A program made the translations under genes and the position numbers. From assembly GCF_004114995.1 (NCBI RefSeq), contig NZ_SDJP01000002.1, forward strand, positions 1 to 64,000: a stretch of DNA of 64,000 bases. The letters run 5' to 3'. Positions 7,177-9,693 of the stretch are shown piece by piece (the stretch's first letter is position 1; the number at the start of each line of letters is the position of its first letter). Source of the DNA: Halorubrum amylolyticum (GTDB taxonomy: Archaea; Halobacteriota; Halobacteria; Halobacteriales; Haloferacaceae). Under the pieces are notes generated by a model that saw only the letters and a program-made list of their open reading frames with translations, did not search any database and was not told the origin of the DNA.

Positions 7177-9693
7177 CTACCGGGCGTCCGTCCCCGCGCC
7201 CTCGGCGTACGACTGAAGCTGTAGCTCCGCGCTCTCCGTGAGCCTGTCGAGCGCCTCCGCGACCCCGTACTCCCGGGCCTCGACGGAGGCCTCGGCGACC
7301 AGCGTCCGGACGGTGTCGAACGGGCCGATCCGGGCGCCGGTCGTGGCCGCCGACTCCTCGGCGTCAAGCAGCTGGTCCATCGCCGTGCGGTAGCCCGGGT
7401 TCTCGTCGAACCAGCCGTCCCGCGTGAGCCGGTCGACAGCGCCCTCGTGGACCGGGAAGTACCCCGTCTCCCGGTGCCACCGCGCCTGCTGTTCCGGCGC
7501 GGCGAGCCAGCCGAGGAACGCGGCGGCCGCCCGCTGCTGCTCGGCGGACGCCCGGTCGGCGACCCACAGCGAGCCGCCGCCAACGACGACCCCGTGGCGC
7601 TCGTCGGCCACCGGGAAGTACCCGGTTCCGACCGGGAACGACGCGCCCTCGTGAACGTCCACCATCGCCGAGGTCGACCCGATCAGCATCCCGGCGCGCC
7701 CCTCGTGGAACGCCTCCCGGGCCTGCCCTCGGGCCTCGATCCCGGGATCGTGATACAGCCCGTCGGCCGCCATGTCGGCGATCCACTCGTACACCCGCTC
7801 GCCCGCCTCGGCGTCGAAGAACGCCTCCGTCGGCGTCCCCGCCCGTCCGTTGTCCGCGTCGACGAGCAGTTGGCCCGCCTCGGCGAACCACTGCTCGACG
7901 AACCACGAGTAGTTCGCGAACGTGATCCCGGTCTCGACGCCGCCGCGCTCGACCAGCCGCTCGGCGCAGCGCCGGACCTCGTCGAACGTCGCCGGAGGGT
8001 CGTCCGGGTCCAGCCCGGCGCGCTCGAAGGCGGCCCGGTCGTAGTAGAGCACGGGCGTCGACGCGTTGAAGGGGAGCGAGTGGAGCCGGCCGTCGGTCCG
8101 GTAGTAGTTCGCGACGGGATCGAGGAGGTCGTCGGGATCGAGCCGCGCCTCCGCGCCGAGTTCGCCGCCCACGCCGCCCCCGGTCCGGGCGGCGTCCGCG
8201 AGCAGGTCCTCCACCGGGGCGAACGCCCCGCTGTCGAGCGCGCGCTTGGTGCCGATCTCGTAGAGGTGCGCGATCGCCGGCGGGTCGCCCCGCTCGGCCG
8301 CCGCGAGGGTGGCGTCGAACACGCCCCGGTAGCTCCCCTTCGAGGAGGGCCGGATCGAGACGCCCTCGGTCGCCGCCTCGAACTCCTCGACGAGCTCGTC
8401 GAGCAGCCGCGCCTTGCGCCCCCCGAGCGCGTGCCAGAACTCGACGACCGCGTCGTCGTCGTCCGCGGCACCCCCGGCGAGGTCGTAGGCGTCGAGCCGG
8501 TCGTCGAGCGTTCCGGTCCGGTCGTTCAGCGTCGACGCGCCGGCGGCCACCTCCGTCAGCGACGTCTTCTGGGTGTGGGCGATCGTCGTCACCTCGGCGG
8601 CGTCCTCGGCGGTGTCGTCCGCGAGCCCGCCGACCGATTCGACCATGTCGACGGCCTCCTCGATCGCGGCCGCCTGGTCGTCGGTCGCGTCGCTGATCTC
8701 CTCGACCCCGCTCGTGGTCTCCTCGATGTCGTCGGTCAGGTCCGTGAACGCTTCGAGGGCGCTCTCGGCGGTGTCTATCCCCTCTCCGACGCGGTCACGC
8801 ATGTCCGTGATCTCCGCGACGGTCGCGTCGGTCTCGTCGCGCACCGAGCCGATCGACGCCTCGATCTCGGCGGTCGCGTCGCGGGACTCCTCGGCGAGGC
8901 TCTTGACCTCCTCGGCGACGACCTCGAACCCGGCGCCGGCCTCCCCGGCCCGGGCGGCCTCGATCGAGGCGTTCAGCGCGAGGATGTTCGTCTCGTCGGC
9001 GATCTCCCGGATGAGGTCGGTGATGTCTTCGATCGCCGCGACCTCCGACTCCAGCTCCTCGACGCGGTCGAGCGCGGTCTCGGTCCGCTCGTCGACCACC
9101 TGTAGCTCCTCGATCGCCGCGGCGGCGGCGCCGTTCCCCTCGTCGGCGCGCTCGGCGACGTTCGCGGCCGTGGTCGCCACCTCCTCCGCCGACGCCGCGA
9201 CCTGCTCCGTCGCCGCCGAGACGCTCTGCAGCTCTTGGGTCGCCTCCGCGATGTCGTCGCGCTGGCGGATCGCCGCCGTCTCGATCCCGTCGACCGCCGC
9301 GTACACGTCGTCGCTCTGCTCTTTCGCCCGCGCCACGTTCGACCGTACGTGCTCCGAGGCCCCCGCGACCTCGTCGCCGAACCCCTCGGCCGCGGACAGG
9401 GTCTCGGTGACCCCCTCGACGAACGCGTTGAGGTCGCTCGCGACCGCGGCCGCCTCTCCGCTCGCCTCCGCCGCCGGGAAGCGAGCCCCGAGGTCGCCGT
9501 CGGCGAGCCGCGCCGCGACCTCGCGGAACGCCCCGATCGGCGCGTCGCCGCCCGCAGTCGGCTCGGTCCGCGTCGTCCCCTCGTCCGCGGTCCGCGTCGC
9601 CTCCGCGTCGGAACCGTGGCCGTTCGACTCCGCTCCGTCCTCCCGGTGTGTCTCTGCTTCCCTCGGTCGATCTCCCGTGCCGTTGCGATCCAT
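7177..9693 (-). CDS. Soluble chemotaxis transducer fused to a UgpB-like solute-binding domain
   Basis: An 838-residue fusion. Residues 1-48 are a disordered acidic tail, and 50-100 are HAMP-like. Residues 100-400 are a methyl-accepting chemotaxis signalling coiled coil, with the conserved hairpin tip ([18 protein letters not shown]) at 233-250. Residues 416-838 form a family-1 ABC solute-binding domain closest in pattern to UgpB, the sn-glycerol-3-phosphate binder (EFWHALGG, then [13 protein letters not shown]). I find no transmembrane helix, signal peptide or lipobox, so the protein should be cytoplasmic. The C-terminal half would then sense an internal ligand and signal through CheW/CheA. 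Domain calls are firm; the ligand is inferred. Confidence 0.9.

Follow-up and report, generated by a model that had tools for sequence, protein, structure and literature searches.

A methyl-accepting chemotaxis protein (MCP) signalling hairpin and an ABC-type binding protein normally meet across the membrane. What, then, could a transducer sense that carries both on one polypeptide? The question is raised by a gene in a 64,000-nucleotide stretch of the Halorubrum amylolyticum genome (contig NZ_SDJP01000002.1, positions 1 to 64,000; hereafter the window). A sequence-only reading had proposed that this gene encodes a cytoplasmic taxis sensor for glycerol metabolism with a UgpB-like domain as its ligand-binding part. 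Our analysis supports the fusion as a real, conserved and new form of cytoplasmic transducer and strengthens that proposal. We assign a probability of about 0.7 to the reading that it is a cytoplasmic transducer for sn-glycerol-3-phosphate (G3P) or a close glycerol-phosphate, linking taxis to glycerol catabolism.

A signalling hairpin and a binding domain in one open frame

The fusion gene runs from an ATG at 9693 to a stop codon at 7177-7179 and encodes 838 aa without an internal stop; the plus-strand frame over 7177-9693 is interrupted by stops. A genome search places an in-frame stop immediately upstream of the ATG, so that the open frame comprises exactly 838 codons and a longer start concealing an N-terminal anchor is ruled out. 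The features of the encoded protein are collected in Table 1.

Table 1. Features of the fusion gene and of its product in the window.
Feature	Residues	Position	Strand	Basis
Fusion ORF, soluble MCP-UgpB transducer	838 aa	7177..9693	minus	single-frame homologues and domain searches
Low-complexity acidic N-terminus, predicted disordered, without signal peptide	1-50	9544..9693	minus	pLDDT <50; sequence and hydropathy
HAMP-like stretch, motif ADGDL, under Pfam cut-off	51-94	9412..9543	minus	HAMP E=0.002; G66-D67-L68
MCP helical signalling hairpin	80-405	8479..9456	minus	PF00015 2.8e-38; helix 80-405 in model; invariant tip residues
Low-confidence linker, hairpin to binding domain	395-410	8464..8511	minus	pLDDT <50 for 395-410
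Complete UgpB-like two-lobe solute-binding domain	416-836	7186..8448	minus	SBP_bac_8; UgpB 4aq4; AF2; Foldseek
Predicted ligand-pocket residues	Y455, E479, S545, N594, W597, S673, G706, Y745, R796	7306..8331	minus	alignment to Phaeobacter UgpB

The claim that a complete MCP hairpin and a complete UgpB-like domain share this one intact frame is borne out by the domain search it had called for, in which Pfam MCPsignal (PF00015) matches residues 194-354 (2.8e-38) and SBP_bac_8 matches residues 433-767 (2.4e-38). The hairpin tip lies around [19 protein letters not shown], and an alignment of the fused family shows invariant residues there (T235-N236, L238-A239-L240-N241-A242, I244 and A246-A247-R248). 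Two putative methylation-like motifs, recognized by pattern, are located near residues 163 and 170 of the hairpin. The HAMP match at residues 51-94 scores 18.8 bits against a Pfam cut-off of 25 (E=0.002), and its G66-D67-L68 is nearly invariant in the family alignment.

For the C-terminal half, the best NCBIfam match is UgpB (2.8e-66, 223.9 bits), under the equivalog cut-off of 411, by which the domain can be called UgpB-like and is not assignable to UgpB itself. E. coli UgpB (4aq4) matches the fusion protein with 2.7e-57, and the best solved relatives are the E. coli and Phaeobacter UgpBs, the latter with ~34% identity to the fused domain.

Distribution and cellular location of the fusion

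Full-length matches were counted in 41 of 293 sampled Halobacteriales genomes. None was found among 148 sampled genomes of the phylum outside this order, and a wider contig scan gave full fusions from haloarchaea only. The closest named orthologues of the window protein are those of H. halophilum, H. lipolyticum and H. kocurii. Among Halorubrum, both halves of the fusion are under purifying selection, with dN/dS of the binding domain at 0.14-0.23. In a tree of binding domains, all 45 fused domains form one clade (100/100), and its sister is a group of secreted haloarchaeal UgpB-like Tat lipoproteins (sister fork 94/86, slightly under the starred level). These secreted proteins (L081, L082, L085, L093) share the pocket letters of the fused domains; unlike the fusion, they carry a Tat signal with an RR motif and a lipobox Cys, and are encoded in ugp-type ABC operons with permeases, an ATPase and a glycerophosphodiester phosphodiesterase (GDPD). 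One fused clade placed beside such operon-borne proteins indicates a single capture of a ugp-type binding protein, with loss of its export signal.

An assembly or frameshift error uniting two genes, named beforehand as an outcome that would speak against the fusion, has a negligible probability and is rejected. The fusion is split in a few genomes (L050, L084, G017), hence local decay or error does occur; against this, ~40 named haloarchaeal loci from separate projects and independent assemblies carry it in a single frame, in Halorubrum, Halohasta, Halonotius, Haloarcula, Halomicrobium, Haloferax and Halobiforma. Almost as improbable is ordinary extracytoplasmic chemotaxis in the manner of BasB/BasT, with the binding domain somehow outside the cell. 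Relatives of UgpB are usually secreted, but here the domain is covalently joined to the C-terminal side of an MCP hairpin, which has to contact CheA within the cell, and neither a TM helix nor a Tat or Sec signal occurs in any fused homologue aligned through both halves. The highest mean hydropathy over 19 residues is 0.81 for the window protein and does not exceed 1.37 in these homologues. We found no membrane helix, signal peptide or lipobox in the window protein by sequence and hydropathy, and no TM segment in its model. The absence of a membrane helix and export signal stated by the sequence-only reading thus stands, and with the upstream frame closed a hidden anchor or signal was rejected.

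We also observed frame breaks in the fusion copies of Halorubrum distributum and one MAG (L050 5803-8362 and L084 5722-8056), and a decayed copy between glpA and glpK in genome G258 (L104 4010-5592).

The predicted pocket retains eight of nine UgpB ligand residues

An AF2 model of the binding domain (pLDDT 94, pTM 0.92) was compared with UgpB, as had been suggested, and predicts the two-lobe UgpB fold. The best four Foldseek matches in the PDB are chains of G3P/G1P-binding UgpBs, including the Phaeobacter complex with G1P and the E. coli substrate complex; 6x84 gives TM 0.90/0.92 with the modelled domain, and UgpB structures overall about 0.85-0.9. The model of the full-length fusion is only moderate (pLDDT 79, pTM 0.55); its domain geometry is too uncertain to read and it is silent on signalling.

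In Phaeobacter UgpB, the ligand phosphate is contacted by Y64, S143, S266 and Y342 and the hydroxyls by E88, G303 and R393, with W188 and W191 as the clamp (PMC12718374). By alignment, the window protein has Y455, S545, S673 and Y745 at the phosphate positions, E479, G706 and R796 at the hydroxyl positions, and N594 and W597 at the clamp, in the same order. Eight of the nine residues are identical in the fusion and do not vary within the fused family. Only clamp W188 is replaced, by Asn or Thr among the fused proteins and by Asn in their secreted haloarchaeal relatives, and the missing Trp may leave the pocket wider than in G3P-specific UgpB. Invariance is enriched at the pocket positions (p = 1.1e-5), since the fused family shows it in only 75 of its 387 aligned columns. 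Loss of the pocket residues, set in advance as evidence against a sensor, did not occur, and pocket decay was rejected.

The same genome encodes a secreted UgpB-like paralogue (L002 1501-2631; C23:183820-184950) in which E88 is replaced by Ser and R393 by Gln, and which probably binds a different ligand. Owing to these two replacements, the glycerol-phosphate pocket is better preserved in the fused domain than in the paralogue.

The fusion is part of glycerol gene clusters in other haloarchaea

Gene context, located outside the window, is the strongest new and most telling evidence. In Haloarculaceae (L062-L066, L068-L070, L086), glpB and glpA lie on one strand, followed by the fusion, by glpK ~150 bp downstream and then by a membrane protein gene. 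Halohasta and Halonotius (L054, L056, L058-L061, L102, L105) have glpA, glpK, the membrane protein gene, an Orc1/Cdc6-like ATPase gene and the fusion, and two further glycerol-cluster arrangements containing the fusion are found at L100 and L101. The identities of GlpK, GlpA and GlpB in these clusters are backed by NCBIfam. Genera with the fusion in such a cluster include Haloarcula, Halomicrobium, Halohasta and Halonotius. That it occurs there in several arrangements points to a functional link and not simply to one order passed down by descent. Overall, glpK is found within 4 kb of the fusion in 21 of the 41 fusion genomes and in 6 of 10 genera, where ~0.2% would be expected by chance for a genome of 3.6 Mb.

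GlpK is encoded in all fusion genomes (41/41, as compared with 246/293 overall), by itself weak evidence because GlpK is common and the species are related. CheA (PF02895) is encoded in the window genome (G000) and in 41/41 fusion genomes. In the window there are no glp genes near the fusion, whose neighbours are ornithine cyclodeaminase-like, DHFR and FtsJ/RlmE-like genes, and the glp cluster of the same genome (L103) contains no MCP gene. The fusion likewise lies away from glp genes in Halorubrum generally and in most sampled Haloferax-like genomes; in Halorubrum the gene has left the glycerol cluster. No ABC transporter partner gene was found beside the fusion in the loci read.

Two other components of these clusters were observed. 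The membrane protein encoded after glpK (330-380 aa; e.g. L069 10012-11157) is matched by no family in Pfam or NCBIfam. Halomicrobium katesii instead encodes a MIP/GlpF aquaporin at this position (L066 9927-10694, 1.6e-42), and there the fusion, glpK and this GlpF-type aquaporin are consecutive on the same strand (L066 5698-10694); the replacement suggests that the membrane protein is a candidate unrelated glycerol facilitator. An Orc1/Cdc6-like AAA ATPase is encoded next to glpK and the membrane protein (L103 10493-11710, L063 11111-12292, L058 4305-5558, L100 11142-12359) in Halorubrum, Haloarcula, Halohasta and one Haloferax-like genome, and its role may lie in regulating the glycerol cluster and not in replication.

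Comparison with known transducers and binding proteins

The Halobacterium salinarum transducer Car (Htr11) is a soluble, cytoplasmic arginine transducer (PMC3579733). The fusion resembles it as a soluble transducer without TM helices that is proposed to read a cytoplasmic metabolite tied to catabolism, and differs from it in the proposed ligand. To our knowledge, neither a UgpB domain nor one of any other ABC binding protein is present in Car. In the Halobacterium pairs BasT/BasB and CosT/CosB, a separate periplasmic binding protein serves a transducer with two TM helices (PMC3579733). As in these pairs, an ABC-type binding protein would provide ligand recognition for the transducer; unlike them, the fusion is a single soluble polypeptide inside the cell with no separate extracytoplasmic partner. 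The fusion would unite the cytoplasmic transducer of the Car type with binding-protein sensing of the BasT/CosT type, the binding protein having become internal and covalent. UgpB itself, the binding protein of the G3P ABC importer (E. coli 4aq4/6x84; Phaeobacter 9lff/9lfj), shares fold and most pocket residues with the fused domain. The fusion differs from it in having no export signal, no ABC operon in the loci read, a position behind an MCP hairpin, and the substitution at W188.

A proposed glycerol-phosphate sensor

We infer for the fusion protein its ligand, the direction of its signal, control of CheA and an attractant response. As incoming glycerol is phosphorylated by GlpK, intracellular G3P would rise, and the two lobes of the internal UgpB domain would close on G3P or a very close glycerol-phosphate. 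Closure would be relayed by the linker (395-410) to the hairpin base and alter CheA activity at the hairpin tip, which would bias archaellum switching. Cells would thereby track glycerol through its first metabolic product. This proposal, already made from the sequence-only reading, gains support from the retained predicted pocket and from the position of the fusion beside or between glpA and glpK in other genomes, and is consistent with the presence of both GlpK and CheA in every fusion genome and with the GDPD-containing ABC operons of the nearest secreted relatives. G3P is the probable main ligand; that another glycerol-phosphate takes this role is rather unlikely.

Archaea make G1P for their lipids. 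As bacterial UgpB is reported not to distinguish G1P from G3P and to bind both alike (PMC12718374), a G3P signal would be blurred in such cells unless the domain is selective or the affinities are tuned; this, with the absence of one clamp Trp, is the source of doubt over the ligand. The same cytoplasmic transducer might instead have G1P or a glycerophosphodiester (e.g. glycerophosphoglycerol) as its main ligand and report lipid turnover or imported diesters, not glycerol catabolism. The Trp pair reportedly appeared with the change of GPC-binding pockets into G1P/G3P-binding ones (PMC12718374), one Trp of that pair is lost here, and secreted sisters with the same pocket adjoin GDPD genes. In the loci read, however, the fusion is linked to glpK and glpAB, which make and use G3P, and not to lipid or GDPD genes, and we consider this alternative unlikely. 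Less probable still is a UgpB domain that no longer binds a small ligand and has a purely structural or protein-interaction role. The domain is outside its usual compartment and has no ABC partner gene alongside, and we have nothing else in favour of such a role. Against it, few positions are conserved as strongly as the pocket residues, the low dN/dS extends to the binding domain, and the fusion has kept two pocket residues that the secreted paralogue of its own genome has changed. Sensing of G3P or a close glycerol-phosphate therefore stays our preferred reading. The fuller account, in which the binding protein of an ABC importer was internalised once in haloarchaea, became the sensor of a glycerol-operon transducer and lets cells navigate by the G3P pool made by GlpK, has in our view an even chance.

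Implications for haloarchaeal taxis

Glycerol from Dunaliella is generally regarded as a main carbon source in salterns. In the open-access literature, to which our search was confined, we found no description of such a fusion, of haloarchaeal glycerol taxis or of a receptor for it. With a defined gene, a predicted pocket and linkage to an operon, glycerol taxis and its metabolic dependence become testable. If the proposal is true, the fusion would clearly exemplify the conversion of a periplasmic-type binding protein into an internal sensor, and its archaeal domain must either distinguish G3P from G1P, which bacterial UgpB reportedly does not, or tolerate G1P. The fusion raises the question of G3P/G1P selectivity where the two lipid chemistries meet.
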